A stretch of DNA of 64,000 nt from Planotetraspora silvatica (GTDB lineage: Bacteria > Actinomycetota > Actinomycetes > Streptosporangiales > Streptosporangiaceae), in assembly GCF_016863315.1 (NCBI RefSeq), contig NZ_BOOQ01000027.1, positions 124,001-188,000 of the forward strand. Reading direction: 5' to 3'. This document shows, in pieces, positions 3,770 to 24,545 of this stretch. The notes beneath the pieces were generated by a model. The model saw only the letters and a list, made by a program, of their open reading frames with translations. It did not search any database and was not told the origin of the DNA. Every line of letters begins with the position of its first letter. Position 1 is the first letter of the stretch. The position numbers and the translations under genes are program-made.

Positions 3770-4040
3770 GCCTCCGGCGGGGGCCTCCAACTCCGGGATG
3801 ATCGCTAGGGCAGGGAGGGTCCGCGGGTGGCTGAGGCAGGGCCCGCGCATCCCTCCTGCCATCGACCCAGGCAGAGCCCAGCAGACCGACTCCTCCGGCG
3901 AAAGCCCGTCTGTGCCTGTTGGCGTCCAATGGCCGAGGAACGGCGAGTGGCCGACGTACACGCGAAGACGGGCTTGCACCTGCGTCACCGGCCCGCTGTC
4001 GCTTCGCGATGGGTCGACGGCATACGGGATGCGCGGACGG
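3770..4040 (+). repeat. Dispersed structured repeat, copy A (complete)
   Basis: The copy begins with GCCTCCGGCGGGGGCCTC and a CTCCGGGATGATCGC box, followed by the core. The 5' arm (3844-3868) and 3' arm (4011-4035) are inverted repeats of each other with 21 of 25 positions matching. The outer ten bases (CGCGCATCCC with GGGATGCGCG) differ completely from copies B and C but still pair. The inner stem TCGACCC with GGGTCGA is shared by all three complete copies. An internal hairpin CTGTCGC-TTC-GCGATGG lies at 3996-4012. The conserved line between the arms reads CAGGCAGAGCCCAGCAGACC. No convincing protein is encoded, since reading frames differ between copies. Confidence 0.75.
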
Positions 4041-4587
4041 GGGAGGAGCGTGCGGTTCCGCACGAGCATCAGGCCGTGCGGGATATGCGCTGGATGATCT
4101 TTCGCGCCGATGCTCATCCTTATTCAGGAGACGTAGGCGCAGCTCATCGATATCGCGTAGCTGACAACCTCGGTTACCTGTAGAACCGTCGGCAGTGCTA
4201 GTCCGGGCCGTTCTGGCTTTCGCGACGGAAGGCGCGTGAGGTACTCCTGATCGGTCGCCGAGGGAGACGCCGGCGGATCCTTGCTCGTCACCGCGCGGAC
4301 GTCCTCTTACTGCAACGCTGGATGCATCACCCGATTGGAGCCGCAAAGCCTGGCTCCCTGGCCAGTAGCAGGAGCGACAGGGCCGACCGCATCGTCAGCT
4401 CATGGCCGGTTTATGTGGTTCTACTGCGACACGTTCGGGTCTGCCGTGCCAACGACGGAGGAACTCCCCCTGCTCTGATCACCGAGGACACCCTGTCCCA
4501 TCTCATCGGCGACGGCGCCGCACAGTACGCGCAGCAGCAGCGACACCCCGTGCTGTAGAGAAGACTGTCCTTGAGATCGTCGCGAAC

Positions 4588-5049
4588 GTGACAACGGACG
4601 GCTGGAAAGCCACTGTCGCTCAGCGATCTTCCGATCTCCTCGGTAGCGCCCTTTGGGATGAAGTTCGCACAGCACGGCACTCTGACTGCGCCCCGCTGGC
4701 TGCAGCTGCTCGCAAGCTTCTAGAAGCACAGGACCAAACCCACGCTCTCGTTGCCGACATACTGGTGGGCAAATCGCCTGCCGACAGGGTGGGGAGATGT
4801 CTCGTAGAACTCCTCCGGAACTATGCCACGAAGATCCCGATCCCAGGCGAGCAGATCTTTGAGGTCTCCGCTCGGGCTCTCCGGATCATGGGCATTTACC
4901 GATGCACTGTCGCTGGCGAACTGAACCGGTGTGAATGCCTTGCCGATCTTGTTCAAGCTGTCGGGAAGGACAAGCTCAAAGAGGTGATCTCCATCGGCCT
5001 GGACGATTGGGCCGACAAGATTCCGCGGCCCGCCGTCGATCGGCCGTGA
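4588..5049 (+). CDS. Hypothetical helical protein, start uncertain
   Basis: The 153-residue product from GTG 4588 is mostly helical (SSDLLGSALWDEVRTAR, LAAAARKLLEAQDQTHALVADILVG, ADRVGRCLVELLRNYA) and has no recognised domain. The frame stays open upstream to an ATG at 4402, but the extra 62 residues are arginine-rich and look non-coding except for a KTVLEIVANV segment just before the GTG, so the true start may lie slightly upstream. The 540 bp before it contain only repeat copy A and, in another frame, a short open end (ITEDTLSHLIGDGAAQYAQQ, stop at 4558) that may be the tail of a lost gene. Function is unknown. Confidence 0.45.
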   Translation: MTTDGWKATVAQRSSDLLGSALWDEVRTARHSDCAPLAAAARKLLEAQDQTHALVADILVGKSPADRVGRCLVELLRNYATKIPIPGEQIFEVSARALRIMGIYRCTVAGELNRCECLADLVQAVGKDKLKEVISIGLDDWADKIPRPAVDRP

Positions 5050-5089
5050 GCCAGTCAGGCTGCTCTCGGGCCATTAGCGGGCCCTTGTC

Positions 5090-6106
5090 TCATTGAATGT
5101 CGTCGTAAAGCAGGACCCGCGCAGGCCGGTCCGTTCTGGAGTTCCCGCGTTGGGAGAGGCGATGCTTGGCGACATTGTAGGCCCAGGCGTGCGTAGCGAC
5201 CTTCTTTTCTACACCGAAGTGCTTCCCAGTCGCTGCATCGAGTACCCGATGATACTCCTCTTGTAGATTCCAAGAGGATTCAGAGAAGTCGGTTTCAGTC
5301 CAGTCGTATAGGTGTCGCAATTCAAATTTTACCGCGGCGATGAAATCCATTTCCGAGCGGTCGTGTTTTTCTGTTCGGGAGCCGAGTGCGCGCATCCAAT
5401 CTTTGACATTTTCGGGGGCTTGCTCCCACTTGCTTCCTGAGTCTCTCATTTCTGCATAGTCAACCCAAGCCCAGAAAGCCTCCGCATCCGCGATATCCGG
5501 AGCCTGGCTGTGATGTTCCTGACACAAAAACGCGAAGTTGCGGACGTTCATCGAACCGCCCAGGGCGGTGGGAACGACGTGGGCGCGCTCGACCTTAGTC
5601 TTCCAGCACACCAGGCAACACGCCGCGTCCATTCCGAGGTACTCGGCGATCGCGTCTCTAGAAGGGGGAGTTCTACGGGCGGCGGTATCTATCTCCCTCG
5701 GTCGGACGGGCAGGAGATCCACGTCGTACCAGAAGCCGTTCTCGCCCTCCGGGTAGGAAATATCGAGTCGCTCAGGGATGTCGTCTAACTGCTTCTGTTT
5801 ATTCCGCACCCTGTATATCGGTGTAGTGATCTCGGTTAGGTATGGGAAAAGCATATCGAGCAAAAAGTGCCGCATTATCTCCCATGAGTCGTGGTCGTAG
5901 CCGCCAATGTCGTTCTTGTGGCCCTGGACTCTGAGGTGGAGGAGGCGTGGTGCACCAGGTCTGGTCCGTTCGGCCATCTGCGCTACTTTGAATATGCGCT
6001 GTGCGCAGCGTTCAAAGTTTTCATACACGGCCATGTCGTGGTAGAGAAGAACGCTCTTTGGCTGTTGGCTCTGGCGAGGTGAGGCCTTACGCGTCTTCTT
6101 AGGCAT
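5090..6106 (-). CDS. HNH-type endonuclease domain protein
   Basis: A 338-residue protein. The central region (about residues 160-210) has an HNH-like beta-beta-alpha metal motif: CCLVCWKTKVERAHVVPTA, then NVRNFAFLCQEHH, with two cysteine pairs framing the AHVVP histidine and the terminal HH. The N-terminal 150 residues are basic then mixed (QRIFKVAQMAERTRPG), and the C-terminal third is helical and aromatic; I recognise neither. Base composition is clearly lower in GC than in neighbours, as for the KAP NTPase, so both probably arrived together. Such HNH proteins occur in restriction and antiphage systems, but no partner gene confirms that here. The start is the ATG at 6106. Confidence 0.75.
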   Translation of the reverse strand: MPKKTRKASPRQSQQPKSVLLYHDMAVYENFERCAQRIFKVAQMAERTRPGAPRLLHLRVQGHKNDIGGYDHDSWEIMRHFLLDMLFPYLTEITTPIYRVRNKQKQLDDIPERLDISYPEGENGFWYDVDLLPVRPREIDTAARRTPPSRDAIAEYLGMDAACCLVCWKTKVERAHVVPTALGGSMNVRNFAFLCQEHHSQAPDIADAEAFWAWVDYAEMRDSGSKWEQAPENVKDWMRALGSRTEKHDRSEMDFIAAVKFELRHLYDWTETDFSESSWNLQEEYHRVLDAATGKHFGVEKKVATHAWAYNVAKHRLSQRGNSRTDRPARVLLYDDIQ

Positions 6107-6291
6107 GTATCCCTCCGCTGTTGCGCAGAGTTAGATGATGCCAGACGGCTCTGACAAAATCCTGCTGATACCCAGTGGGTGGCGGTCAGCCCTTGGGGCG
6201 TCGGCATTTGATCGGCTGCGCCAATCGAGGTAGGCGATCGGAAGGAGAGGAGCACGCAGGGGCGCCCGTCGCGGATCGTGTCTCGGCCACC

Positions 6292-6397
6292 GTGCCATTG
6301 CCGTGCCATTCGACGGCAAGCAGCGGCTCCGTATGGCGATCCGAAGCGCTGATGACATGGGCGAACGGCATGATCACCGTGCCATTAGCGTGCCATT
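6292..6397 (+). repeat. Phased GTGCCATT repeats next to tRNA attachment site (left)
   Basis: Four copies of GTGCCATT occur as two pairs, at 6292 and 6303 and at 6379 and 6390. Members of each pair are 11 bp apart, one helical turn. The same pattern recurs at 15858-15999 before the second attachment-site copy. Position and phasing suggest arm-type binding sites for a tyrosine integrase or an excisionase. The stretch 6107-6480 holds no gene. Confidence 0.6.
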
Positions 6398-6480
6398 AGG
6401 CGGCGCCCGAGCTGGTCAGTGGGGGAGGGCCGGCTAGGTAGACCCGCAGTTCAGCGCGCCGCAAGTAGCGCGCTTGGCTC

Positions 6481-6525
6481 CTTACAAGCGAGGGGTCACT
6501 GGTTCGAACCCAGTACCGCCCACCA
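6481..6525 (+). other. Attachment site: 3' half of tRNA-Val(TAC), left copy
   Basis: The 45 bases run from the anticodon loop CTTACAA (anticodon TAC) through GCGAG, the T-arm GGTTCGAACCC and the 3' acceptor strand ACCGCCCACCA. The bases to the left do not complete an anticodon stem, D-arm or GGGCGGT acceptor strand, so this is not a functional tRNA. It is the segment that actinomycete integrases recombine into tRNA genes. A second copy lies at 16084. Homology between the two sites extends about 100 bp on either side, including the phased repeats and an integrase tail. Confidence 0.8.
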
Positions 6526-6581
6526 GGCAAAACGCGCCTTCTCTGATCTTGCTTTCCCGGGCTGAGTGACGAACTGAGTGA

Positions 6582-6700
6582 CTATGCCTCGGAGAGGCAG
6601 TTGATCTTCTCTAGGTCCCGCAGAAGCACCAGGCGGATCTTCTTGCGGTAGGTAGTCTCGGTGACCACCGTGTTCTGGTGGCCGGTGGGCATGAGGTTGT
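6582..6700 (-). pseudogene. Tyrosine integrase C-terminal remnant adjoining the attachment site
   Basis: The minus strand encodes GHQNTVVTETTYRKKIRLVL followed by DLEKINCLSEA and a stop at 6582. GHxxT and TYRK correspond to the last catalytic histidine region and the nucleophilic tyrosine of AICE tyrosine recombinases. Everything upstream of about 6700 in this frame loses similarity, so only the last 40 residues survive. Its stop lies 57 bp from the tRNA fragment, the usual integrase-to-att arrangement. Confidence 0.7.
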
Positions 6701-6739
6701 GCCGATCTGATGGCAGCGTCCGGCATGGAATCGCCTTGT

Positions 6740-6997
6740 TCACGGATCGCCAGTGGTCGGGGGAGGAGCGGGCAATCTGCATGCTTCCGAGGGCGCGTCC
6801 GGCTCGCCGTGTTCGATCTCATATAGGCACTCTCCGCAGGGTGACGCATCATCGTCATCGAATGCGCCCCCAGGATGCTCACGCCAGTCGTGGCCACATG
6901 CGGGGCAATCGCCGTAGAAACGTATGCGACCCTGCCAACGCCGGAATATGTTCACCGCGACATGATGCCTCCTCCCTGTGATCCCAGGTCGCTTCAT
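6740..6997 (-). CDS. Small zinc-ribbon protein
   Basis: An 85-residue protein with two cysteine knuckles, CPACGHDW and CGECLYEIEHG, separated by an acidic FDDDDAS segment and preceded by a basic N-terminus (NIFRRWQGRIRFYGD). This looks like a single treble-clef or ribbon zinc site. The ATG at 6997 overlaps the TGA of the upstream integrase remnant (ATGA), implying translational coupling, so the gene probably sat downstream of the integrase in the parent element. A GTG fifteen codons in is an alternative start. I recall similar small proteins in actinomycetes but cannot assign a role. Confidence 0.6.
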   Translation of the reverse strand: MKRPGITGRRHHVAVNIFRRWQGRIRFYGDCPACGHDWREHPGGAFDDDDASPCGECLYEIEHGEPDAPSEACRLPAPPPTTGDP

Positions 6998-7203
6998 GAG
7001 AAGAAGAGGTCATCCATGGTCTCGGCACCCTGCATGAGCACGGGCCGGATCTGCTTGCGGTAGACGGTCTCGGTGACGACCGTATTCCGGTGGCCGGCGA
7101 GGCGGGAGATGTCCTCGATCGGGACGCCGGAGTCTGACAGCAGCGAGACGAAGCTGTCCCGCATTTCGCGGGGGGACCAGTCTTTGCCGGGCAAGCCGGC
7201 CGC
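6994..7203 (-). pseudogene. Tyrosine integrase C-terminal remnant fused behind rep
   Basis: The frame from about 7203 reads AGLPGKDWSPREMRDSFVSL, then LSDSGVPIEDISRLAGHRNT, then VVTETVYRKQIRPVL, ending DDLFFS at 6994. It contains the catalytic R (REMRDSF), HxxT (GHRNT) and Y (VYRK) segments of a tyrosine recombinase but none of the N-terminal 300 or so residues. Its 5' edge abuts the truncated rep gene out of frame, so a deletion removed the 3' part of rep, whatever lay between, and the front of int. Confidence 0.75.
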
Positions 7204-7664
7204 CCGTGTTCACACGTCCGGTCCCGGTTGCGGGGACGGCAGGCTCGCACGGTCCCGCTCGTCTCGCGTCGGGTGTGGACCTGCCCGAAGGACGGGGCCA
7301 TCAAGGTGACGAATGCCCGCGGATGAGCGCTGACCGTCTCCGGTATTCCTTTGCCGCCGGACAGGCCCGCGCGGATCAGGTGGAAGGTGTCGGCGCGGTA
7401 GACCTCTGAGCAGGCCGGGCAGACCGATACGCGCCGGTTGCCGCAGGCGACCAGGAGGTGCCCGCCGGGTTCGTCGGTGGTGGTGTAGGTGTGCAGCGCC
7501 TCGCCCGTGCTCGCGTCAACGACCGTCGAGTCGCCGGTGAGGTGGATCGGGTGGGCGCAGCCGCCTGTTGCGGCGACCATCTGCCGCCATCGTTGGTAGC
7601 CCGGCGCGTTGACGACCCGCACGAGGTCGGTCATCCATTCCGGGTGTTCGTTGCCAGCGTTCAT
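7199..7664 (-). pseudogene. Truncated RepSA-type replication initiator of an AICE
   Basis: From ATG 7664 (ribosome site GGAAGGTGG) about 155 residues match the N-terminus of pSAM2-type replication initiators: WRQMVAATGGCAHPIHLTG, a GGHLLVACGNRR segment, the zinc-like CPACSEVYRADTFHL and HPRAFVTLMAPSFGQVHTRR. After TCEHGR the similarity stops at about 7200 and the sequence becomes integrase in another frame. Rep would initiate rolling-circle-type replication of the excised element. This copy lacks the catalytic half, so it is dead. It is divergent from the GntR regulator gene. Confidence 0.75.
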
Positions 7665-7700
7665 GATCAACCACCACCTTCCCGCGATCGCAGTACCACT

Positions 7701-7748
7701 TGTAGTACATGTTGACTTACTTTGATCTGCTCGTCAACCTGTAGTACA
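7701..7748. promoter_or_regulatory. Paired TGTAGTACA operator in the rep/korSA intergenic region
   Basis: Two copies of the near-palindrome TGTAGTACA lie at 7701-7709 and 7740-7748, 39 bp apart, embedded in CACTTGTAGTACATG and CTGTAGTACAAGTAG. They lie between the divergent rep remnant and the GntR gene, where KorSA-like regulators repress both promoters. The assignment rests on position and symmetry. Confidence 0.55.
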
Positions 7749-7781
7749 AGTAGTGCTGAGAAAAGTTCGGGGAAGGAAGTC

Positions 7782-8651
7782 ATGGAGACCGACGAGAAAA
7801 ACGCCATCTGGCGCGTCATCACCACCGACCTACGCGCCGCCATCCTGGACGGCCGCTATCCACCAGGCGGCGCACTCCCCAGCGAACCCGAGCTCGTCAG
7901 GAAGTACGACGTCTCGCGCCCCACCGTCCGCAAGGCCATCGACACCCTGGTCTCCGAAGGACTGGCCTACGTCATGCGCGGACGCGGCTCATTCGTCCGC
8001 CCCATGCCCGAACGCCGCGCCATCGTCATCACCGACCGCAAACGCCCCGACCTCGCCGCCCCCGGCAACCACCCCGACGTCCAAGAATTCGGCTGGGACC
8101 TCGCCATGCGCGACGCCGACCCTGACGCCCCGCTGTTCACCGACGAGAAGATCAGCGCCAACCGCGATACCGCGATCATCCTCGGCGTCAGGCCCGGACA
8201 CCCCGTCATCCACCGCCACAGCATGTGGCACCGCGGCCACAGCGCTGTCATCCACGGCGCGTCCGCCCGACTGGAGATCAACTCCTACACCAACGCCGAC
8301 ATGCTTCCCGACTGGGACAACCCCAAGCGCCACGACCAGTACCGCAAACGCGCCGGGTTCTTCTACCAGTCGCTCATCCGCGAACACGGCCCCATCCGAT
8401 GGATGACCCTCACCACCGCCCGCATCGCCTACGAAGACGAACGCACCCTGCTCGCGATGGACTACGCCGAAGCACTGCTGATCATCCGCCGCACCATGGC
8501 CCACGCCAACGGCCGGCCCATCGAGGTCACCGAGGTCAAAGCCTCTGCCAACCGCTACGAGATCGGCTACCACGCAGAGCTTGCCGACGAGCCCACCATC
8601 GACCTGACCCCGCAGGAACTCAGAGACAACGGCATCGACCTCGTGATTTAA
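7782..8651 (+). CDS. GntR/UTRA-family regulator, KorSA-like
   Basis: A 289-residue protein from ATG 7782, preceded by GGGGAAGGAAG. Residues 5-75 are a GntR winged helix: WRVITTDLRAAILDGRYPPG, LPSEPELVRKYDVSRPTVRK, VMRGRGSFVRP. The rest is a UTRA-type effector domain ending DLTPQELRDNGIDLVI. In pSAM2-like AICEs the equivalent KorSA represses pra and its own gene and so controls replication and transfer. Here it is intact although its element has lost rep and int function. The divergent TGTAGTACA sites at 7701 and 7740 are the likely operators. A 20-codon upstream extension to 7722 is open but lacks a ribosome site. Confidence 0.85.
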   Translation: METDEKNAIWRVITTDLRAAILDGRYPPGGALPSEPELVRKYDVSRPTVRKAIDTLVSEGLAYVMRGRGSFVRPMPERRAIVITDRKRPDLAAPGNHPDVQEFGWDLAMRDADPDAPLFTDEKISANRDTAIILGVRPGHPVIHRHSMWHRGHSAVIHGASARLEINSYTNADMLPDWDNPKRHDQYRKRAGFFYQSLIREHGPIRWMTLTTARIAYEDERTLLAMDYAEALLIIRRTMAHANGRPIEVTEVKASANRYEIGYHAELADEPTIDLTPQELRDNGIDLVI

Positions 8652-8701
8652 GCAGTTCACCAATGTTCGCTGGTACTGCCAGCGCGTCAGACAAGGGGAA
8701 C

Positions 8702-9010: not shown

Positions 9011-9322
9011 GCCGACCGGGGAAGGTCGTCAGTCCCCGCGACGTCTGCTCGGACACCGGCCTGGCCCGACTCTCCTACGGCCAGGCCCGCGCCTTGCTGG
9101 ACGAGCACACCGCCGTGTGCGGGCCGGGAACCGGCTGGGACCTGCACGAGTACCGCCATTCCGCCCTGACCCACCTCGGTGAGCAGGGTGCCTCCTTGCT
9201 GATGCTGATGGCGAAGTCCCGGCACAGGAAGCCGGAGAACGTCCCGCCGCTACTTCAAGCCGTCCCCGGAAGCGATCTCGGAGCTGACGAGCCTGCTCGC
9301 GCCTGGCGACGCGCGCCGCTGA
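9010..9322 (+). pseudogene. Tyrosine integrase C-terminal remnant with frameshift
   Basis: The frame from about 9010 reads [20 protein letters not shown], then [20 protein letters not shown], then [16 protein letters not shown]. After this a shift of frame is needed to continue [20 protein letters not shown] to a TGA at 9320. HEYRHS is the catalytic RxxH region and RRYFK carries the tyrosine. The N-terminal two thirds are missing. This integrase type differs from the remnants at 6582-7203 and is related to the fragment at 22989. Confidence 0.75.
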
Positions 9323-9647
9323 ACCCTGCTGTCACTGGTGTGACGTGGGTCAAGCCGTGGCTGGGCGCGGAGCACCGGCTGCGGGCCGCGGGGGCGTAGC
9401 AGCCGTCAGTCGCAGTCCTCGGCGGCGGGGCCTCGCGACTTCGCAGTCGAGGAAGTCCTCGCGCACTGCGGCCAGCCGTCGATCGACCCGGTCGATCGGT
9501 CCGGCAGTCGAATGTTCACTCACACGTGGCTGATCGTTTGGATCATGCGCGCGGTGCGGCCGAGGGCCGGGCGGACACTTCCCTCAGCCCGTCAACAGCA
9601 TGGTTGCGGGCCAGTCCCGCACGCCAACTCGGGAGGGTCTCTTGTCG
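9323..9647. other. Gene-free stretch after integrase remnant
   Basis: The 325 bp contain short open frames but no recognisable gene. A segment near 9440-9510 translates to FAVEEVLAHCGQPSIDPVDR, which faintly resembles the start of a DDE transposase, but it is too short to support. The ribosome site GGGAGG for the next gene lies at about 9631. Confidence 0.4.
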
Positions 9648-11342
9648 ATGAAACTCAGGCTCCGTGCGCTCACGGGGGCCCTGGCCGCCGCCGTGGCGCT
9701 GGCAACGCTCACTACCACCCCCGCGGCGAATGCCGCCGCCTCGGTTCCGTCGCAGGGATCGCCGACACAGCTCGACGTCGGCAACTGGAACGTCGAGTGG
9801 TTAGGTGCGCCGGACTTCGGCCCGACCAACGAGGCGCTTCAGCAGCAGAACGTCCGCGACGTCATGGCGGGCGCCGACATGGACGTGTGGGGCCTCTCCG
9901 AGGTCGTCAGCACCTCGGCGTTCGACACACTCGTGGCCGGCATGCCCGGGTACACCGGGGTCGTGGCCAACGACCCGATCGTGACGAACGGTGCGCAGTA
10001 CTACTCGGACTTCAGCAACACCGAGCAGAAGGTCGCCCTCGTCTGGCGTTCCAGCATGGCCACCCTGGTGAGCGCGAAGGTCATCCTGACCAACCAGAAC
10101 AGCAACTTCGCCGGCCGCCCGCCGGTGGAGTTCACGTTGCGCGGCAGGTTCGACGGTGTCACCCGTGACCTCGTCTTCATCGTCCTGCACGCGAAGTCCG
10201 GGTCTACCCAGGATGACTGGAACCTCCGCAACCCCGCGTCGCAGGCCCTTAAGTCCTACCTCGACACGACCTACCCCACACAGAACGTCTTCGTCATCGG
10301 TGACTGGAACGACGACGTCGACACCTCCATCACATCCGGGAAGGCTTCGCCCTACGCCAACTTCGTGAACGACGCGGCGCGCTACACGTTCCCGACGCGG
10401 GCCCTGTCGCTGGCGGGCGTGTCGTCGACGGCGGGCTACCCGGACTTCATCGACCACCAGCTCACCACCAACGAGGTGCAGGCGAAATACGTCGCCGGCT
10501 CGGCGAAAGCCTTCCAGCCCCAGGCCTATGTCCCGAACTACGCGACGACGACCAGCGACCACTACCCGGTGCTGGCTCGCTACAACTTCGTCATCGGCGG
10601 TGGCGGCGGCGCGAACCAGCAGCCCACGGCGTCGTACACGCACTCCTGCACCGCTCTCAACTGCACCTTCACCGATGGCAGCACCGACTCCGACGGCACC
10701 ATCGTGAGCCGCAGCTGGAACTTCGGCAACGGCCAGACCTCGACGGCGATGAACCCGACCGTGACCTACGCATCGGCCGGAACCTACGCGGTCTCGCTGA
10801 CCGTGACGGACAACGGCGGGGCCACCCACACCACGACCCAGAACGTCACCGTCACCGCCGGCGGTGGCGGCGGACCCGCCAACGTCATAATCAACGAGGT
10901 GCTGGCCAACGAACCGGGCAGCAGCACCGCCGGCGAGGCCATCGAGATCGTGAACACCGGTGGCACGGCGATCAGCATCGCCGGCTGGACCGTCCGGGAC
11001 GGGTCGGCAGTGCGGCACACGTTCGCGGCCGGTACGACGCTGCAGCCCGGCAAGGCGATCACCGTGTTCGGCGCGGGCTCCGCGATCCCCGGTGGCATCG
11101 TGGCGGTGGCAGCCAGCACCGGCGGCCTCAACCTGTCCAACAGCGGTGACCAGGTGATCCTGCGGGATTCGGCCGGAGCGACAGTCCAGTCGATGAGCTA
11201 CTCCTCGAGCCAGGCGAACTCCGACGGGGTGTCCATCAACCGAAGCCCTGACGGTTCGGCGACCGGCGGCTGGGTCAAGCACAACACCATCAGCTCGCTG
11301 TCCCGCTCGCCCGGCCAGCGCGCCAACGGAACGGTGTACTGA
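9648..11342 (+). CDS. Secreted endonuclease/exonuclease/phosphatase-family protein with PKD and lamin-tail domains
   Basis: A 564-residue protein from ATG 9648 with GGGAGG upstream. Residues 1-30 are a signal peptide (MKLRLRALTGALAAAVALAT, cleavage near ANAA). Residues 38-330 form an EEP nuclease/phosphatase domain: GNWNVEWLG, WGLSEVV (metal-binding Glu), FIVLHAKSG, VIGDWNDD and TTSDHYPVLARY (catalytic Asp-His). A poly-glycine linker leads to a PKD domain (about 335-415, NQQPTASYTHSC, FTDGSTDSDGTI). A second glycine linker precedes a lamin-tail-like beta domain (VIINEVLANEP, IEIVNTGGTAISIAGWTVRD). It probably acts outside the cell on nucleic acid or phosphate esters. It stands alone among element remnants. 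Confidence 0.88.
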   Translation: MKLRLRALTGALAAAVALATLTTTPAANAAASVPSQGSPTQLDVGNWNVEWLGAPDFGPTNEALQQQNVRDVMAGADMDVWGLSEVVSTSAFDTLVAGMPGYTGVVANDPIVTNGAQYYSDFSNTEQKVALVWRSSMATLVSAKVILTNQNSNFAGRPPVEFTLRGRFDGVTRDLVFIVLHAKSGSTQDDWNLRNPASQALKSYLDTTYPTQNVFVIGDWNDDVDTSITSGKASPYANFVNDAARYTFPTRALSLAGVSSTAGYPDFIDHQLTTNEVQAKYVAGSAKAFQPQAYVPNYATTTSDHYPVLARYNFVIGGGGGANQQPTASYTHSCTALNCTFTDGSTDSDGTIVSRSWNFGNGQTSTAMNPTVTYASAGTYAVSLTVTDNGGATHTTTQNVTVTAGGGGGPANVIINEVLANEPGSSTAGEAIEIVNTGGTAISIAGWTVRDGSAVRHTFAAGTTLQPGKAITVFGAGSAIPGGIVAVAASTGGLNLSNSGDQVILRDSAGATVQSMSYSSSQANSDGVSINRSPDGSATGGWVKHNTISSLSRSPGQRANGTVY

Positions 11343-11507
11343 GCCCCGATCCACCGGCTTGACTTCGAAGTGATCGTTTAGCGAGGTTCGGGCTGGTCGG
11401 CTGGTGGCGTGTCCAACCAGCCCGCCAGCTCCTCGCGGACCTCGGCGAAGTCCCGCCAGCCCCCGGCCTCCTGGATCTCCCCGGCGTGCGTACGCGCACC
11501 AGACGGG

Positions 11508-11727
11508 CCGTAGCTGCCTGAGGTAGAGGTGCTGATCGCTCGCCTGCCATCGACCCAGGCAGAGCCCAGCAGACCGACTCCTCCAGATCAAGCCAGGCCG
11601 TGCACGTTGGGCAACCAGCGCGAGGAAGGCCACCGGGAAATGTACACGCGAGGCCAGGCTTGACCCTCTGTCGCCGGCCCGCTGCCGCTACGCGGTGGGT
11701 CGATAGCAGACGAGAGATCAGGAGGGA
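11508..11727 (+). repeat. Dispersed structured repeat, copy B (complete, best symmetry)
   Basis: The arms at 11532-11556 and 11697-11721 are inverted repeats matching at 22 of 25 positions, beginning CTGATCGCTCG and ending CGAGAGATCAG, with inner stem ATCGACCC and GGGTCGAT. The internal hairpin CTGCCGC-TAC-GCGGTGG lies at 11682-11698. Relative to copy A this hairpin replaces a T-A pair by C-G. The upstream box CCGTAGCTG...GAGGT is shared with copies C and D. The region 11343-11507 before it holds no gene. Confidence 0.8.
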
Positions 11728-12340: not shown

Positions 12341-12483
12341 TCGTGAGTGACGAACTGCGTGACAACCCCGATGAACGACGCTGGACACTCGCGGACGAGA
12401 GTGGACTGCCCCCGCAGCTAGAGACTCTGTAGGCCAGTTTGAGCTGCTGGTGACGTTCCCTGATAAGGAAGAGGTCCGCACGT

Positions 12484-12534
12484 AGCCGGCCCGCTGCCGC
12501 TACGCGGTGGGTCGACAGCCGACGAGAGATCAGG
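12484..12534 (+). repeat. Dispersed structured repeat, copy E (3' part only)
   Basis: Only the 3' half is present: the GGCCCGCTGCCGC-TAC-GCGGTGG hairpin, GGGTCGACAGC and the closing arm CGAGAGATCAGGA. The 5' arm is absent. It lies between the hypothetical gene ending at 12340 and the SUKH gene starting at 12595. Confidence 0.65.
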
Positions 12535-12594: not shown

Positions 12595-13053
12595 ATGGCG
12601 ATGAGCGCTCCAGATTTCGAGCAATTGGCGACTATTCTTGCCACCAGGGATAACGCCGTAGCTGGCCTCACCCATGCCGAGCTACTGGAACTTGAACGCG
12701 GATTGGGTGGCATGAGGCTTCCCTTGGCTTACCGTGACTTCATGAAACGAATGGGGCGGGATGCAGGGCCTCTCCTGGCCGGGACCGACGCTTTCTATCC
12801 GCAGATCATCGACTACCAGGCAGAGGCCTGGGAGCTGGTTTCAGACGAGAAGATCGGGCACCTGGTCCCTGCTGAGTCGATCATATTCGCGACGCATCAG
12901 GGATACCAAATATATTGGATGTCTTCTGAGGCAGGTGATGATCCTCCAGTCTTTATGTACCAGGAGAATGACCAAAAGATTAGTCGTAGATGGGAATCGT
13001 TCTCGGAATTCGTTTATGGTGAATTCGAAAGGTTCCATAGCGGGCGGCAGTAA
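12595..13053 (+). CDS. SMI1/KNR4 (SUKH) family protein
   Basis: A 152-residue protein from ATG 12595 with a GAGGTGG site upstream. The fold signature is clear: LTHAELLELERGLGGMRLPL, AYRDFMKRMGRDAGPLLAGT, then ESIIFATHQGYQIYWMSSEA and VFMYQENDQKISRRWESFSE. SUKH proteins commonly act as immunity proteins that bind and neutralise contact-dependent or polymorphic toxins, especially nucleases. No toxin gene is visible nearby, so this would be an orphan immunity gene. Codons are slightly less GC-rich than in chromosomal neighbours. Confidence 0.85.
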   Translation: MAMSAPDFEQLATILATRDNAVAGLTHAELLELERGLGGMRLPLAYRDFMKRMGRDAGPLLAGTDAFYPQIIDYQAEAWELVSDEKIGHLVPAESIIFATHQGYQIYWMSSEAGDDPPVFMYQENDQKISRRWESFSEFVYGEFERFHSGRQ

Positions 13054-15135: not shown

Positions 15136-15270
15136 GGAGCCAACCTAGAGAAGGCAGGTGGCGACCAGCCACTCGCTTTCATCGACCGATGCGTTCTGCG
15201 ATCACATGAGTACCCAAGCAATGATCTGAGCCACCGGTAGGAAGAATCCATCCCCTGTTAGAAAAGCGAG

Positions 15271-15360
15271 CCTCCGGCGGGGGTCCTCAGCTCCGGGATG
15301 ATCGCCCGCGCATCGCCGAGGACCCGAGGGGCTGAGGTGGAATCCTGATCTTCCCGTCTC
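15271..15360 (+). repeat. Dispersed structured repeat, copy F (5' part only)
   Basis: It has GCCTCCGGCGGGGGTCCTC, CTCCGGGATGATCGCCCGCG and GGGCTGAGGTGGAATCCTGATC, matching the leader parts of copies A and D. The sequence diverges after CCTGATC and then contains a short CTCCTGATCAGAGG. The rest of the gap 15136-15654 shows no gene. Confidence 0.55.
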
Positions 15361-15867: not shown

Positions 15868-15999
15868 CTCCACCGTCGGCGAGGCGACCGTCGTACCCAT
15901 TGGCGTGCCATTGGACGGCTGGACCACGCTGCCGAGAAGGGTCTCTGACTGCATTGATCAGCGAAAGGGGCATGATCACCGTGCCATCAGCGTGCCATT
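15858..15999 (+). repeat. Phased GTGCCATT repeats next to tRNA attachment site (right)
   Basis: GTGCCATT occurs at 15858, 15905 and 15992, with near matches at 15893 (ACCCATT) and 15981 (GTGCCATC). The pair 15981/15992 is again 11 bp apart and lies in a block (CATGATCACCGTGCCAT...) almost identical to 6370-6400. This is the counterpart of the left-hand array. Confidence 0.6.
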
Positions 16000-16083
16000 A
16001 GGCAGCGTCGAACATGGTTGGTGGGGGAGAGGCCGGCTAGGTAGACCCACAGGTCAGAGGGCTGCCGATAGCGAGCATGGCTC

Positions 16084-16128
16084 CCTACAAGCGAGGGGTC
16101 ACTGGTTCGAACCCAGTACCGCCCACCA
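16084..16128 (+). other. Attachment site: 3' half of tRNA-Val(TAC), right copy
   Basis: This 45-bp segment is a direct repeat of 6481-6525 with one difference in the anticodon loop (CCTACAA for CTTACAA). It ends in GGTTCGAACCC and ACCGCCCACCA. No 5' tRNA half precedes it. Together the two copies bracket a 9.6-kb unit holding the korSA/rep/int remnants and their cargo, as expected for elements integrated in tandem at one tRNA gene. Confidence 0.8.
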
Positions 16129-16181
16129 GGCAAAACGCACCTCATCTGATCTTGTCTTCCCCGGCTGGACGAACTGAGTGA

Positions 16182-17600: not shown

Positions 17601-18179
17601 CGCTTCCTCATCACACAAGAGAGCCCGGACCCCGCGCACACCAACTAAGCGCGTTCATCCGTACTCCAAGTACCCCGACAGCACTCCCCAGCTGCTGAAC
17701 AGGGCCTCGACGATCGCCAGCGAACTCGGGCAAGACTTCGGCCGGAGGTGAAGGTCTTACTGTCGCGGCGCCGGCAACCGATGCCGGCCAGCCGCGAGTA
17801 AGGTGGCGCGTCCCACACGCGCTCCCTCTAAGCAGTGCCACCAGTAAGCGTGGCCGCACGCCCGTATCGGTTGGTTGCGCGCCGCCCACCGGCGGGTTGC
17901 GGCTCTTCGGCCGGTCCCGCCGGCGGCGGCGCGCACCACGCCGACAAGCGGCGTGACCATCGGATCGACGGCATAAGCGGCTTGTGCCGATGAAGGTCTC
18001 TTCCCAATTGGTGAACGGTCATAGGCACGGGCAGCAGTCGAACAAGCCCCGGAAACCAGTAGGCGACGCTACGCGATAGGACGAGCAGGGGAGAGGCGGA
18101 GACGTGCCGGGGAAGACCTCGGGGCACCGCCCCGGACCCCGGGGCGCTCCAGCTTCGAGAGATCAGTCCGCGCATCAGG
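17601..18179. other. Gene-free stretch with decayed coding traces
   Basis: Nearly 580 bp without a supportable gene. A short frame at about 17645-17751 (HPYSKYPDSTPQLLNRASTI, ending at a TGA) looks like the tail of a lost gene but matches nothing I know. The rest is GC-rich with several small inverted repeats and leads into repeat copy C. Confidence 0.4.
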
Positions 18180-18402
18180 GGGCCGTAGCTGGTTGAGGTG
18201 GAAGTCCTGATCGCTCGCCTGTCATCGACCCAGGCAGAGCCCAGTAGTCCGACTCCTCCAGGTCAAGCTCGGCCGTGCAGGCAGGGCGACCAGCGCGCGA
18301 GGAAGGTCACCGGGAACATGGACACGCGAGGCCAAGCTTGACGCTCCGTCACCGGCCCGCTGTCCTTCGGATGGGTCGACAGCAGACGAGAGATCAGAAC
18401 AA
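18180..18402 (+). repeat. Dispersed structured repeat, copy C (complete)
   Basis: The arms at 18207-18231 and 18373-18397 are inverted repeats with 20 of 25 positions matching. The outer stem CTGATC.CTCG and the inner stem TCGACCC/GGGTCGA are as in copy B. The internal hairpin CTGTCC-TTC-GGATGG at 18360-18374 keeps the pairing with altered bases. Upstream box CCGTAGCTGGTTGAGGTGGA. The next gene's promoter begins 12 bp after the repeat. Confidence 0.8.
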
Positions 18403-19897: not shown

Positions 19898-20021
19898 GGG
19901 TCCTCCTCGATTGCGTCAGCGGATTCGATGATGTCAATCAGCTACGACAAGTTGAGACTCCACATACAAGGGCCAGTTCAGCTCAGAGAATGGGCCTTCG
20001 TCGGAGATCTAATATGGGTGG

Positions 20022-20387
20022 ATGCACAGCCCGCGGGAGAATGCCGAAGGCAACTGGTCGTTTCTCCGTACGAGCGTGCAGTACCTCGCTCTATCCGCAG
20101 GCGATCAGCTTGAGTGGGTCGGGTCCATGAGCGTCGGCGTTGATGAACTGGCGCTCTACTTCGACGATGCCTATTCCACAGCGTGGCGTTCTCGGGACAC
20201 GGGATGGATCTCCGAGCATCTCGACAGCACCCTCACCGACATCGACCAGATGCTGATCAGCCTCACCGAGGAAGGCCCCTCCGCATGGACGGAGGACGCC
20301 CTGCACTCTCATCTGAAGTGGGAAGAAATCAGGAGACTCGCTCATCACGCTCGTGCCCTCATGCCGGCCCAGCCGTGGGAGGAGTGA
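20022..20387 (+). CDS. Hypothetical acidic cytoplasmic protein
   Basis: A 121-residue protein, MHSPRENAEGNWSFLRTSVQ, then YLALSAGDQLEWVGSMSVGV, then a conserved-looking DELALYFDDAYSTAWRS and DIDQMLISLTEEGP, ending LMPAQPWEE. It is acidic and mostly helical, with no signal or membrane segment. Small proteins of this look occur among immunity-type cargo genes in actinomycetes, but I cannot name the family. An integrase fragment starts 16 bp after it on the other strand. Confidence 0.6.
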   Translation: MHSPRENAEGNWSFLRTSVQYLALSAGDQLEWVGSMSVGVDELALYFDDAYSTAWRSRDTGWISEHLDSTLTDIDQMLISLTEEGPSAWTEDALHSHLKWEEIRRLAHHARALMPAQPWEE

Positions 20388-20402
20388 CATCGATCGTGGA
20401 GT

Positions 20403-20480
20403 CTGGTGGGGGGGACCAGTCTTTGCCGGGCAGGCCGGCGGCGTCGAGGATCTTCCGAAGGCCACGACGTGCGACCAGGT
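20403..20480 (-). pseudogene. Internal fragment of a tyrosine integrase
   Basis: The minus strand encodes HAYLVARRGLRKILDAAGLP followed by GKDWSP. The second part is identical in sense to the start of the remnant at 7203 (AGLPGKDWSP). The piece ends exactly before the catalytic arginine region. Both sides are unrelated sequence, so it is a short orphan fragment. Confidence 0.6.
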
Positions 20481-20552
20481 AAGCGTGCGGTGCTGAGTCG
20501 GACGATGCTGCGAAAGCGGCAGTCGCCCCGCGTTCTGGCATACCGCAGCTGC

Positions 20553-21638
20553 TTAGCGCAGGACGGCCGCCAGCAGGTCTGTGCCCAGCGTCGTCATCTC
20601 GGGCAGGTTGAGGGTGTAGTGGACGTAGCGCCCGCGCCGCCGGGTTGTGAGCAGGCCCGCGCGGCGCAGGACGGCGAGGTGGCGGGAGACCTCCGGGGGA
20701 GAGAGCTCCCAGGCGTGGGCCAGTTCGCCGGTGGTGTGCGGGCCGCGGGCCAGGGTGCGCAGCAGCCGCATGCGTACCGGATGCGCGAGTGCCTCCAGGC
20801 GGAGGGTGACCGTTTCCAGCGATACCGGCTCTGACGGACTCGGCTCGGCCACGGGGTACTGCACCACCGGCTGCCATCCAGGCGCGTGGATCACCACCAG
20901 GTGCGGGCGGCCGAAGTCACTGGGGATGAAGGTGACCCCGGTGCCGTGTGCGGCGGTTGCGTTGTCCTGCAGCTTGTCCACGATGATGCAGTCGCCGTCC
21001 GGTGCCAAGGTGACGGCGCCGGAGACCGAGGAGAGTGCCGCCCCGATGCCCTGGCGCTTCAGCAGGTCGTTCTTGAGACGCAGGTCGGTGGCCAGTTGCA
21101 CGGCGACGCGCGTCCAGGCGGCGTCGAAGAACGCCTCTGCGCATTGTTCGAGGGTGTGGCGCACCCGCGCCCGCACCGCGGCCGGGTCCGCGAGCAGCCG
21201 CTCCGCGAATGCCTCTTGGAGTGCGCCGCGGGCCTGGGCCAGGTCCAGGGCCCGCTCGCGCGCGGTCGCGTCAGAGAGCGGCGACGGCGCGGCGAAGTGG
21301 ACCCGATTGCTGCCGCACGTGGTGGTGAGCGCGGCGGTCACATAGGTCTCGTCGTCGATCCGGTCCACATCGTCCAACTCCTCGGCGAGGGTCTGCCGAG
21401 GTCGGGCAGGGACCAGGAAATCGGCTCGTGAGGAACGCCAGAGGAACTCCGCCTCCCGCAACCGCTCGGCCAGCTCCGGCCGCAGCCCGGACCAGACTTC
21501 CCCGGCCCAGCCGGCCAGCCGCGGGTGATGCCCGGGTTCGGCCAGGACGTGCAACATCGCGGTCAGCTCGGCCAGCGGGGAGGCGGCGAATCGCAGCCGC
21601 TCGGCCGGCAGCCCGGTGATGTCGATGCGCAGCGTCAT
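20553..21638 (-). CDS. DUF5937 / ArsR-family winged-helix regulator
   Basis: A 361-residue protein. Residues 1-250 match the DUF5937 module (MTLRIDITGLPAERLRFAAS, LTAMLHVLAEPGHHPRLAGW, FFDAAWTRVAVQLATDL). Residues 270-350 are an ArsR-type winged helix (RLEALAHPVRMRLLRTLARG, THTTGELAHAWELSPPEVSR-like, then HLAVLRRAGLLTTRRRGRYV). It carries no metal-binding ArsR cysteines. It is divergent from an MFS exporter gene, and a 29-bp perfect inverted repeat lies between them, so it probably represses the exporter and itself in response to an exported small molecule. Confidence 0.87.
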   Translation of the reverse strand: MTLRIDITGLPAERLRFAASPLAELTAMLHVLAEPGHHPRLAGWAGEVWSGLRPELAERLREAEFLWRSSRADFLVPARPRQTLAEELDDVDRIDDETYVTAALTTTCGSNRVHFAAPSPLSDATARERALDLAQARGALQEAFAERLLADPAAVRARVRHTLEQCAEAFFDAAWTRVAVQLATDLRLKNDLLKRQGIGAALSSVSGAVTLAPDGDCIIVDKLQDNATAAHGTGVTFIPSDFGRPHLVVIHAPGWQPVVQYPVAEPSPSEPVSLETVTLRLEALAHPVRMRLLRTLARGPHTTGELAHAWELSPPEVSRHLAVLRRAGLLTTRRRGRYVHYTLNLPEMTTLGTDLLAAVLR

Positions 21639-21673
21639 CCCCCCATCATTGCTGGTCGGACGGCTGGCGGCGG

Positions 21674-21702
21674 CGTCGGTTGACGATGTCCGTCAACCGA
21701 CG
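21674..21702. promoter_or_regulatory. Operator between ArsR-type regulator and MFS gene
   Basis: CGTCGGTTGAC (21674-21684) and GTCAACCGACG (21692-21702) form a perfect 11-bp inverted repeat with a 7-bp spacer. It lies 36 bp from the regulator start and 37 bp from the MFS start, almost exactly central, so one bound dimer could control both directions. Confidence 0.8.
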
Positions 21703-21738
21703 TGCCGCATCCGGCGGCCCGACACAACCGTAGGCGCC

Positions 21739-22923
21739 ATGGCAACCACCACCAGAATCCAGCCCCGCGCCCTCCTCTATGCCTCCGGAGGCCCCCGCTA
21801 CGCCGTTGCCCTGGCCGTGGACGCGCTCGGCACCGGTCTGCTGCGGCCCTTTCTGCTGCTATACGGAGTAACGGTGCTGAGGCTGTCCACGCCGGTCACC
21901 GGCACCGCCATGACGGCCGGCGTCGTCGCGGGCCTGGTGTGCATGCCTGTGGTGGGCCGATGGCTGGACCGGGGCGCGCGCAGCACGGTTGTGGCGGCAT
22001 CGATGCTGGTGCGGGTGCTGGGCGTGGCGCTGCTGCTGGCAACTCCGACGGGGAACGTCTGGCTGTTCGCGACAGCGGCGCTCTTCCTCGGCATCGGCAA
22101 CCAGGCATGGCCGGCCGCCCACGCCGCCCTCGTGGCCACGGTCGCCCACGGCCGGGAACGCGACGCCGCCCTCGCAGGGGGCCGCGCCCTGCGCAACGCC
22201 GGCCTGGGTGCTGGCGCACTCGTCGCCACCGCCTGCCTGGCGGGCGGAACCACCGCATTGAGAGCGTTGGCAGGCGTGACCGGGCTCGCCTACATCGCCG
22301 CGGCGGCCTTGGCGTGGTCGGTCCACGTGCACGCGCATCCGGCCGCTGCCGCGGCCAAGGACAGGGACGACGAGCCGACACCCCGGATGCGCGCGCTGCT
22401 GGCCGCCAACGTGATCTACGTCTTCTGCCTCAACGTCCCCGAAGTCGCCCTCCCTCTGGTCCTGGTGACGCAGATGCACGCCTCCCCGGTGTGGTCGGCG
22501 GCCATCTTTGTGGCCAACACGGTGCTGGTGGTCACCCTGCAGGTTCCGGTCACCGTCCTGACGTCACGCTTCCCCCGCCGGTCCGTGCTGGCATTCGCCG
22601 GTTTGGTGCTCGCCGCGTCCTACCTCGGCTTCCTCGCCGCCACCTCACTGGGACACGGCTGGGGTGTCCCGGCCATCGCCGCGGTGTCCGTGGTCTGCAC
22701 CCTCGGTGAGATCATCTATGCAGGCAGCGCCACCGCGCTCGTCACCGCCCTCGCCCCGGCCCCTGCCCTGGGAAGCGCTCTCGCCCGCTTTCAGCTCTCC
22801 ACGGGTTTCGGCCTCGCCGTCTCCCCAGCGGTCATCACCGCTCTCGCACCACAGGGCCCGGCTGCCCTCTGGGGCAGCCTCGCCGCCGTGACTCTTCTCT
22901 CCGCCTCCGCCGTTGTCCGCTGA
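21739..22923 (+). CDS. MFS transporter
   Basis: A 394-residue membrane protein from ATG 21739 with about twelve hydrophobic helices. The motif after helix 2 (VVGRWLDRGARSTVVAASML) corresponds to the GxxxDRxGRR loop of major facilitator transporters. The central cytoplasmic loop is at about 200-215 (AAAAAKDRDDEPTPRMRALL). It is likely a drug-type exporter: it is divergent from a DUF5937/ArsR regulator with a shared operator. The substrate is not indicated by sequence. Confidence 0.87.
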   Translation: MATTTRIQPRALLYASGGPRYAVALAVDALGTGLLRPFLLLYGVTVLRLSTPVTGTAMTAGVVAGLVCMPVVGRWLDRGARSTVVAASMLVRVLGVALLLATPTGNVWLFATAALFLGIGNQAWPAAHAALVATVAHGRERDAALAGGRALRNAGLGAGALVATACLAGGTTALRALAGVTGLAYIAAAALAWSVHVHAHPAAAAAKDRDDEPTPRMRALLAANVIYVFCLNVPEVALPLVLVTQMHASPVWSAAIFVANTVLVVTLQVPVTVLTSRFPRRSVLAFAGLVLAASYLGFLAATSLGHGWGVPAIAAVSVVCTLGEIIYAGSATALVTALAPAPALGSALARFQLSTGFGLAVSPAVITALAPQGPAALWGSLAAVTLLSASAVVR

Positions 22924-22988
22924 GCAGGGATCGAGCATGATGCGCCACGGAACGGCCGCTACCGCCGAGAAGGAGCAGGGAACGCGCT

Positions 22989-23095
22989 TCAGCGGCTGGT
23001 GTCGCCGGGCGCGAGCAGGCTCGTGAGCTCGGCAATCGCCTCTGGCGCCGGTTTGAAGTAGCGGCGGACGTTCTCCGGCTTCTTGCGCCGGGGCT
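22989..23095 (-). pseudogene. Tyrosine integrase C-terminal tip
   Basis: The minus strand reads [20 protein letters not shown] followed by [11 protein letters not shown] and a stop at 22989. It is closely related to the tail of the remnant at 9010-9322 ([25 protein letters not shown]). The tyrosine of RRYFK is the nucleophile. Nothing upstream belongs to the gene. Confidence 0.7.
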
Positions 23096-23151
23096 CTATA
23101 TGCGATTCCTGGACCTTGACGCCATATCCGGCGCCACAAGATGATCAACAC

Positions 23152-24318
23152 ATGTCTCCGCGCGCAGGCGTCACCATGGCAGGCCTAATCACGCTCGCAC
23201 TGGTAGGCGCCTGCGGCAATGACGGTGTGGATCACGCCGAGCGGGTCTCACTCAAGGGTCGGGCGTCCGCTACGGCCACTGTGGCTCCCTCACCGGCGGC
23301 GTTCCCATCCCTGCCCGCCCCAGCCGCCCAGTCGTCAGCCCCCGCAGCCGTCGCGCCGGAGCCCATGGCGACCTCACTGTCGTCGCCCATGGCCACATCT
23401 TCACCCCTGCCAGCGGTCGGTCCACCGCGCTTCATCGTCACAGCGCGGGCTCCGCTCGCACGCTTCGCGAAGGACTCCAAGACAGCGGTCTTCACTCCTG
23501 TACGGCCCGCCGTGCACGACGCCACGACCGGAGCGTTCCTGGCCGCCATCCCCCTGCCGCCAGGAGTGCGCTCCTCCTGGCAACTTCTGGCCGCCGCACC
23601 CGACAACCGCACCTTTGTACTATCCGGATGGACCAGACCGGAATCTCCCACCCGGTTCTTCCGCGTACACCTCGCCGAGGACGGGTCACCGAGCGATCCG
23701 ATACCCGTTCCCGGACTAGAGGGCGACCCGCTGAACATTGGATACATCATTGCCCTGAGCCCGGACGCCACCAGGCTCGCCTACGCCGCCTCCACCCCGG
23801 GTGGAGCGAAGATCTCCGTCGTCGATCTCGCCACCGGACAGCGCCGCGACTGGAGCACGAGCGCGTCCTCCGTGGTGAACGGCCTGGCCTGGGCCCCGGA
23901 CGGCCGACGGATCGCACTGGTGGTCGGCGGTTGGGGCATCGGCGTCCTCGACCTTGCCCAGCAGGGATCAGATCTGCTGGCCGCCACCCGCCTCGTCAAA
24001 CCGGGCAACGGCCTGCCACTGCTGGAGTCAGTGGCGTACACCCCCGATGGCAGTGCCCTGATCTACTCAACCGGCCATTCCATAGAGCGCGTCCCGGTCG
24101 ACGGTAGGGAGGAACCGCGGGTCCTCGCGAAGGTGACGTTGCCGGCCGACGCGTCACTGAGCCTCCGTTTCAGCCTTGACGGAACCGGCCGACACCTGCT
24201 CTACATGCACCACTGGCGGAGCTTCCGAGTCGATCTCGCCGATGGTTCGACCACGTCGGTGCTCATCAAGGCCGGTGAGCACTCCAGTGAGGGTGACTCA
24301 CCAAACGCCGCCTGGTGA
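23152..24318 (+). CDS. Lipoprotein with beta-propeller (TolB/PD40-like) repeats
   Basis: A 388-residue protein from ATG 23152. The signal ends in lipobox LALVGAC (Cys at about residue 21). A Pro/Ala/Ser-rich linker to about residue 90 precedes a propeller with repeated blades: IIALSPDATRLAYAASTPGG, LAWAPDGRRIALVVGGWGIG, VAYTPDGSALIYSTGHSIER and SLDGTGRHLLYMHHWRSFRV. The xPDGxxIA pattern is typical of PD40/WD40-like blades. It probably sits on the outer face of the membrane as a binding or sensing protein. Ligand is unknown. Repeat copy D follows. Confidence 0.8.
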   Translation: MSPRAGVTMAGLITLALVGACGNDGVDHAERVSLKGRASATATVAPSPAAFPSLPAPAAQSSAPAAVAPEPMATSLSSPMATSSPLPAVGPPRFIVTARAPLARFAKDSKTAVFTPVRPAVHDATTGAFLAAIPLPPGVRSSWQLLAAAPDNRTFVLSGWTRPESPTRFFRVHLAEDGSPSDPIPVPGLEGDPLNIGYIIALSPDATRLAYAASTPGGAKISVVDLATGQRRDWSTSASSVVNGLAWAPDGRRIALVVGGWGIGVLDLAQQGSDLLAATRLVKPGNGLPLLESVAYTPDGSALIYSTGHSIERVPVDGREEPRVLAKVTLPADASLSLRFSLDGTGRHLLYMHHWRSFRVDLADGSTTSVLIKAGEHSSEGDSPNAAW

Positions 24319-24393
24319 TAATTCGTGCTTCGCCCACTCCGCTAGCGTCTGTGCCGGGCCCATGCACCAGCTTGTGAACGCTCTCCGATACGC

Positions 24394-24545
24394 CTCAGGC
24401 GAGGGCCTCGGCTCCGGGATGATCGCCCGCGCAGAAGTCGGAGTCCGTAGCTGGTTGCGGCGGAGCCTGATCGTCCCGCCTGCCGCGACCCAGGCAATAG
24501 CCCGGCAGACCGGCTTCTACGGCTCAAGCCCGTCGGCGCGAAGCT
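24394..24545 (+). repeat. Dispersed structured repeat, copy D (5' part)
   Basis: It begins GCCTCAGGCGAGGGCCTCGG, then CTCCGGGATGATCGCCCGCG, CCGTAGCTGGTTG and CCTGATCGTCCCGCCTGCC, with GCGACCCAGGCAATAGCCCG in place of the canonical loop line. The 3' arm is missing. The rest of the gap to 24732 contains only a 14-codon frame (24669-24710) and no gene. Confidence 0.65.

Follow-up and report, generated by a model that had tools for sequence, protein, structure and literature searches.

A conserved hairpin repeat near the ends of pSAM2-like integrative conjugative elements, a candidate single-strand origin

INTRODUCTION

Rolling-circle actinomycete integrative conjugative elements (AICEs) are main gene-transfer vehicles among antibiotic-producing actinobacteria, and the conversion of their single-stranded DNA (ssDNA) into double-stranded DNA is undescribed in the open-access literature that we found. 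Among the closest described systems are single-strand origins (sso). ICEBs1 of Bacillus subtilis has, besides its origin sso1, a second region redundant with it (PMC4595007), and priming in the plasmid pSN22 has been reported to follow a route that does not need RNA polymerase (cited in PMC4170104). Here we describe a repeat unit, which we name REP, in 64,000 nt of the genome of Planotetraspora silvatica (contig NZ_BOOQ01000027.1, positions 124,001 to 188,000). This whole stretch is referred to as the window, and coordinates are those of the window unless a locus or plasmid is named.

REP offers a concrete, testable candidate for this conversion. Searches of open-access papers, which did not extend to older subscription work on pSAM2, pMEA300 and pMR2, found no description of a REP-like hairpin in AICEs. 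We consider that REP is probably a cis-acting ssDNA structure of pSAM2-like AICEs, with initiation of the lagging (complementary) strand as its most likely task, and that the copies in the window are probably decayed AICE ends.

RESULTS

The REP unit and its copies

A REP unit is about 265 nt long, the full-length reference being window positions 3769-4036. Its first part is a GCCTCCGGCGGGG block under strong conservation (at 3769 in copy A; replaced in the subgroup that includes copy C). Next come a word called R0, a GTAGnTGGCTGAGGT block and the 5′ arm of the end stem, then an inner stem, two hairpins facing each other (the side hairpin and a small one), an apex that varies, and finally the 3′ arm. 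Two variants were distinguished by their apex, which is long and diverse in type 1, whereas in type 2 the apical stem and its loop are shorter. The copies and parts identified in the window are:

3769..4036, minus strand: copy A, full-length REP, folding on the minus strand (nhmmer 250 bits, model 1-269)
3794..3803, plus strand: R0, a direct repeat of the 3′ arm of the outer stem, located upstream, CGGGATGATC (read from the sequence)
3845..3869, unstranded: 5′ arm of the copy A end stem, 21/25 pairing with 4010-4034
4010..4034, unstranded: 3′ arm of the copy A end stem, partner of 3845-3869
3996..4012, unstranded: copy A side hairpin CTGTCGC-TTC-GCGATGG, with minus-strand loop C-GAA-G (fold and loop count)
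11503..11722, minus strand: copy B, REP lacking the conserved block of the 5′ end (nhmmer model 50-263, 144 bits)
12481..12528, minus strand: copy E, reduced to the 3′ end (nhmmer model 216-263, 26 bits)
15270..15359, minus strand: copy F, 5′ end, central hairpin gone (nhmmer model 2-91, 40 bits)
18141..18398, minus strand: copy C, REP variant with arms CGAGAGATCAG (nhmmer model 12-263, 128 bits)
24392..24536, minus strand: copy D, 5′ half (nhmmer model 2-145, 88 bits)

The original prediction, made from the window alone, had 25-nt end arms pairing at 21, 22 and 20 of 25 positions in copies A, B and C; these counts were reproduced exactly (copy B, 11533-11557 with 11696-11720; copy C, 18208-18232 with 18372-18396). 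Random placements in the window with equal search freedom (n = 2000) reached at most 18/25. A chance repeat was rejected. The second, internal hairpin noted at that time is present (3996-4012 in copy A), and the partial copies E, F and D are real. As to the repeat family then proposed, its copies hold, with a unit longer than described (3769 to about 4036); its independence as a dispersed family does not, REP being a module near AICE ends (see below).

Deletion of the central hairpin, seen in the window at 15270-15359, was also observed in the REP copies of L067 (8671-8705), L043, L062 (11262-11343) and L073 (13800-13915). By eye, the deletion in L067 apparently runs between the direct repeats formed by R0 and the 3′ arm, as slippage at a folded strand predicts.

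BLAST with window positions 3700-4100 gave 23 matches in the same genome, a number that includes copy A's own complement and one place outside REP, leaving at most 21 distinct REP places, mostly partial. A REP match was obtained in 19 of 60 genomes searched, and a second REP variant was matched in 68 of the 296 genomes of the class (E ≤ 1e-3; many of these matches are weak), P. silvatica being counted both times. Clusters were mostly of a single orientation, the exception being L070, where a plus and a minus copy lie 2.5 kb apart. No REP match was found in the phage collection.

Covariation supports a fold of the bottom strand

Forty-five copies, read on the bottom strand, were aligned by sequence only in two sets, A4 (22 type 2 copies) and A3 (23 type 1 copies). 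Pairing was kept in 96.1% of 1397 cells in A4 and 93.6% of 1097 cells in A3, percentages that lean high because the consensus folds were derived from these very alignments (that of A4 from its near-identical forerunner, A2). Double changes were found at 35 of the 64 pairs in A4, with 159 cells changed on both sides against a shuffled mean of 42.7, and at 20 of the 48 pairs in A3, with 86 such cells against 29.9. None of 500 shuffles reached the observed value on any covariation measure in either alignment. When partners were slid by 1-3 columns, pairing fell to 29-44%. The outermost stem pairs rank among the most variable. Selection on a fold, as the original prediction proposed, is thus supported by an overwhelming covariation signal.

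The folded REP molecule is the bottom strand, because both the folding energies and the excess of G.T over A.C favour it. With DNA parameters, consensus energies were -67.1 for the bottom and -43.9 for the top strand in A4, and -23.6 and -7.8 in A3; RNA parameters gave -125.8 vs -90.8 and -63.9 vs -32.9, respectively. G.T and A.C combinations stood at 111:13 and 129:14 on the bottom strand in two alignments, vs 33:33 and 16:10 on the top strand, and smaller sets agree. Folded singly as ssDNA, the bottom strand of copy A had a z-score of -3.9 (top strand -1.4 as DNA, -1.35 as RNA) and that of copy B -2.4, while copy C alone folds no better than its shuffles (z +0.5); the REP copy of pMR2, a circular AICE, reached -9.1.

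On this strand, 32 of the 45 copies have a side hairpin whose stem, of 3 pairs or longer, is capped by a C-GNA-G loop (14/22 of type 2, 18/23 of type 1; GAA 16, GGA 11, GCA 3, GTA 2). GNA triloops are unusually stable in DNA, and C-GNA-G with a free N is a hallmark of DNA mini-hairpins, not of RNA tetraloops.

Across 35 copies, R0 and the 3′ arm were identical at a mean of 7.97 of 10 positions, compared with 6.56 after row shuffling (0/5000 shuffles reached this), an agreement inflated by related rows. The joint change of these two words means that either of them could serve as pairing partner of the 5′ arm, or that a cognate protein reads the word.

REP lies near one end of pSAM2-like elements

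In one genome (G016) two REP copies belong to a 7.28-kb duplicate, 99.9% identical, which also carries RepSA, FtsK-type Tra, GntR-UTRA and NUDIX genes; this gene content indicates a pSAM2-like AICE, and REP is 226 nt from the duplicate's edge (L070). From the 38 listed matches at E ≤ 1e-12 in the class-wide REP search, 20 REP loci were hand-picked with their neighbours not known. A RepSA-type Rep was encoded within 10 kb of REP in 16 of the 20, in the order REP, (GntR), Tra, Rep, (xis), int; 15 of these 16 have Tra (all but L159) and 15 an integrase match (all but L165). The Rep gene had the sense of the folded strand in 16/16 loci, a count that speaks for orientation and not for side, as only the expected side of REP was covered. 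The four loci without RepSA are L160 and L164 (both with an integrase match only), L170 (a 12.7-kb stretch, contig end) and L172. REP-carrying Rep classes are mutually 26-35% identical.

Ends of elements (att) were judged from direct repeats, because ARAGORN found few whole tRNAs (none in pMR2, one in L123). In 6 of 17 loci (L163, L168, L173, L174, L177 and L123; shuffled controls ≤12) the element is flanked on both sides by direct repeats of 44-64 nt, and REP lies 111-1613 nt inside the repeat distal to int; by eye these repeats are tRNA-end-like. The other 11 loci had no bracketing direct repeat above 18 nt. In pMR2, from Micromonospora rosaria, one full REP copy adjoins int in the same orientation.

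A sti-like hairpin often accompanies REP

A second conserved hairpin, h2, has the apex GACCGGCCGAAGAGCCGCAG followed by CTTGAAGACGTAGAGAAAGTT-like sequence. It was found in 12 of 40 RepSA loci chosen regardless of REP, 11 times in Rep orientation and once opposite (L117), with a weak match in L100 in addition; in loci L101-L116, read in Rep orientation, it was mostly located at 5.8-8.2 kb. In L090, L091, L114 and L060, and weakly in L083 and L056, h2 shares the folded strand with REP at a distance of 85-432 nt. It is also present in circular plasmids of Actinomadura and Streptosporangium (pAGRA3207_1, pAGRA3207_2 and pSROS01), and the window has one such match:

17893..17942, minus strand: weak h2 match about 200 nt upstream of copy C (nhmmer E 9.5e-4, 18 bits)

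With 19.4 bits, the 3′ half of h2 matches the rep-sense strand of pIJ101 at 7312-7258 (at most 9.6 bits in 200 local shuffles, 10.3 in 2.0 Mb of reversed sequence). Relatives of this pIJ101 stretch occur in 54 plasmid records, with pJV1, pSN22 and pTSC2 among the 20 matches listed. That of pSN22 (291-398) is 83% identical, and in pJV1 the element occupies, on the rep-sense strand, a stretch without listed genes that separates rep from the GntR gene. According to PMC4170104, sso(sti) is found past spdA2, on the downstream side of rep; because its position fits, the pIJ101 stretch was taken as sso/sti, a label that the records themselves do not carry. The conserved noncoding element of pIJ101, pJV1 and pTSC2 is most likely their sso/sti.

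A sti-like profile was built from five circular plasmids (pIJ101, pJV1, pTSC2, one S. silaceus and one S. zaomyceticus plasmid), leaving out pSN22 and the linear-plasmid element beside REP. It matched 11 of the 20 REP loci (L158, L159, L160, L162, L164, L165, L166, L167, L168, L169 and L171), each with a single match, which is on the folded strand and separated from REP by 69-239 nt (E 1.9e-9 to 2.8e-3); a profile of pIJ101 and pJV1 alone matched 10/20. Among the 40 RepSA loci, the five-plasmid profile matched L103, L109, L113, L116, L118 and L119.

Pycsar system effector family annotations were observed on three plasmids: pJV1 (L180, 1778-2221), pSROS01 (L155, 26581-27756) and the S. zaomyceticus plasmid (L184, 7885-8328).

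Probable traces of AICEs around the window copies

RepSA, Tra and an integrase form an AICE core immediately beyond the left edge of the window, with Rep and Tra at C27:113957-117077. Relative to copy A, the core is oriented as expected, and 10.7 kb separate this copy from Tra; no direct repeat marks the ends of an AICE at copy A. Within the window the following features were found:

6879..7670, minus strand: truncated RepSA, the pSAM2 replication initiator (Pfam PF20199, profile 2-139 of 438, E 1.2e-50)
7722..8651, plus strand: GntR-UTRA regulator (KorSA-like), a gene type known from AICEs (PF00392 E 4.6e-18, PF07702 E 3.9e-7)
6378..6398, plus strand: tandem CGTGCCATTAGCGTGCCATTA, a putative integrase arm-type-like motif (pattern scan)
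15980..16000, plus strand: second copy of the tandem motif, CCATTAGCG (pattern scan)
1023-3071, minus strand: KAP family NTPase, cargo left of copy A (domain search)
5090-6106, minus strand: weak HNH match, cargo (domain search)
12595-13053, plus strand: SMI1/KNR4 (SUKH) gene, cargo (domain search)

The tandem arm-type-like motif recurs downstream of some REP copies elsewhere. A 144-nt duplication (86% identity; 6421-6564 and 16024-16167), accompanied by 6288-6404 and 15890-16006 with tandem CCATTAGCGTGCCATTA motifs, looks like two copies of an element end region. The window cluster is best read as the ends of successively integrated AICEs that have since decayed. Scans for related loci found none with the KAP NTPase, and with window 9600-11342 gave three viral contigs, which were not used.

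DISCUSSION

A possible role in complementary-strand synthesis

The most likely job for REP is that of a new type of single-strand origin, or of one half of a composite one. Two properties of a minus-strand origin were found: REP lies within rolling-circle replicons (RepSA within 10 kb in 16 of the 20 loci, and pMR2), and strand analysis and gene orientation agree in placing its fold on the rep-sense strand, which we take to be the displaced strand. In the scheme that we propose, RepSA would start rolling-circle replication of the excised circle by nicking, and the rep-sense strand would be displaced. This would expose the REP bottom strand, whose fold is a stem of about 190 nt with a cross-shaped junction, a side loop that is mostly C-GNA-G and a variable apex. 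REP sits between attP and the Tra/Rep genes, often with the sti-like second hairpin directly after it on the folded strand, and the two may together recruit host factors from which the complementary strand is started. Whether by priming or by such recruitment, REP would act in cis.

Several observations weigh against this proposal. By the rule of our script 13 of the 45 copies, including that of pMR2, are without the C-GNA-G loop. The strand signal alone cannot tell ssDNA from an RNA of the bottom strand, and the gene orientations say nothing of the side. Among the 40 RepSA loci, a REP profile match within 15 kb upstream was present in just 9, all in the expected orientation, with those of L103 and L105 weak and apical only; a diverged relative in L104 brings the count to 10/40, and L110 and L117 have REP matches downstream. 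REP or h2 was found in 19/40, so that REP is not universal, or has diverged past detection. Homology of REP to a proven sso was not found, as pIJ101 is without any REP profile match, and the identity of the pIJ101 stretch as sti is presumed from position, not from annotation. In a hairpin scan, 30 of the 40 loci had their strongest ssDNA hairpin on the strand of rep sense; this result carries little weight, because coding-strand composition may bias it and because in the pIJ101 control the strongest hairpin adjoins rep, not the presumed sso stretch.

The diverged REP relatives of L103, L104 and L105 have the apical hairpin in common and differ in the outer stem.

A bolder version of the proposal, which we put forward only tentatively, is that REP represents an undescribed class of minus-strand origin, distributed across actinobacterial AICEs, in which the word occurring three times (R0, 5′ arm, 3′ arm) would permit two mutually exclusive stems and serve as an identity tag, tying the second-strand start, and perhaps entry exclusion among elements, to the AICE concerned.

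Alternative explanations

The alternative that survives best, although we judge it unlikely, is that REP is a structured RNA (a leader, a regulatory RNA or an insulating terminator) made from the bottom strand, in Tra-Rep-int sense, near the AICE end. Covariation and strand asymmetry would fit an RNA equally, the bottom strand has Rep sense in 16/16 loci, and RNA parameters too favour it. The C-GNA-G side loops, typical as they are of DNA, fit an RNA less well, the window has no Rfam match at gathering score, and the neighbour of REP is an sso-like element. Where the original prediction left the choice between a structured RNA and a folded ssDNA site, the fold stands and the evidence leans to the latter; neither a known Rfam family nor an insertion sequence (IS) end was seen in the window.

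Quite unlikely in our opinion is that REP is a double-strand origin (dso) or Rep-binding site, its three concerted arm copies serving the cognate Rep as iterons. Iterons and long hairpins are common features of dso, changes in R0 go with changes in the 3′ arm, and RepSA proteins match the REP_ORF2-G2P family as well. A Rep-specific dso should follow the class of its Rep; REP accompanies Rep classes as divergent as those described above, which speaks against it, and other RepSA loci have h2 only or neither. For pSAM2 itself, a dso with a pC194-type nick site is cited in PMC3218068.

We regard as very unlikely that REP is an accessory integrase or excision site at the attachment end, or the clt transfer locus read by the FtsK-type Tra. 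Its place near the element end would suit such a site (226 nt from the duplicate edge in L070, and in six loci 0.1-1.6 kb from the repeat that resembles att). The distance from REP to att is not fixed, however, and h2 occurs in the circular plasmids pAGRA3207_2 and pSROS01, which list no integrase (their gene tables are incomplete). Integrases and Tra proteins act on double-stranded sites, for which 190 nt of strand-specific pairing would be unneeded.

Finally, a non-autonomous transposon (miniature inverted-repeat transposable element) or an attC family of the integron kind whose ends are inverted repeats, suggested by many copies per genome, clusters of mostly one orientation and inverted ends, is extremely improbable, given the constant position and orientation relative to Rep, with 16/20 copies in the same RepSA slot rather than inserted independently of a host element (target duplications were not searched), ends that vary while pairing persists, and no linked recombinase besides the AICE integrase.

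Comparison with known systems

If REP acts on ssDNA as proposed, it would be a case of compensatory evolution in probably single-stranded DNA, which is rare, and it can in any case serve as a handle for locating AICE ends and remnants. Integron attC sites also act through a folded bottom strand conserved in structure. REP differs from them in that its outer pairs are variable, with no conserved outer R boxes, that the linked integrase is that of the AICE and not an integron integrase, and that no gene-cassette boundary is present.

The sso/sti elements of pIJ101, pJV1 and pSN22 are, like REP, strand-specific hairpins on the rep-sense strand, lying in pJV1 between rep and the GntR/Tra genes. 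REP is set apart from them by its own sequence blocks, its cross-shaped fold of about 190 nt and its three related arm copies. With sso1 of ICEBs1, REP would share the role of a single-strand origin inside a rolling-circle integrative conjugative element; sso1, as described in PMC4595007, has a three-stem-loop architecture and belongs to a firmicute element. REP itself is part of the pSAM2-family AICEs, pMR2 included, and if REP and the sti-like hairpin are two origins in one element, these AICEs would resemble ICEBs1.

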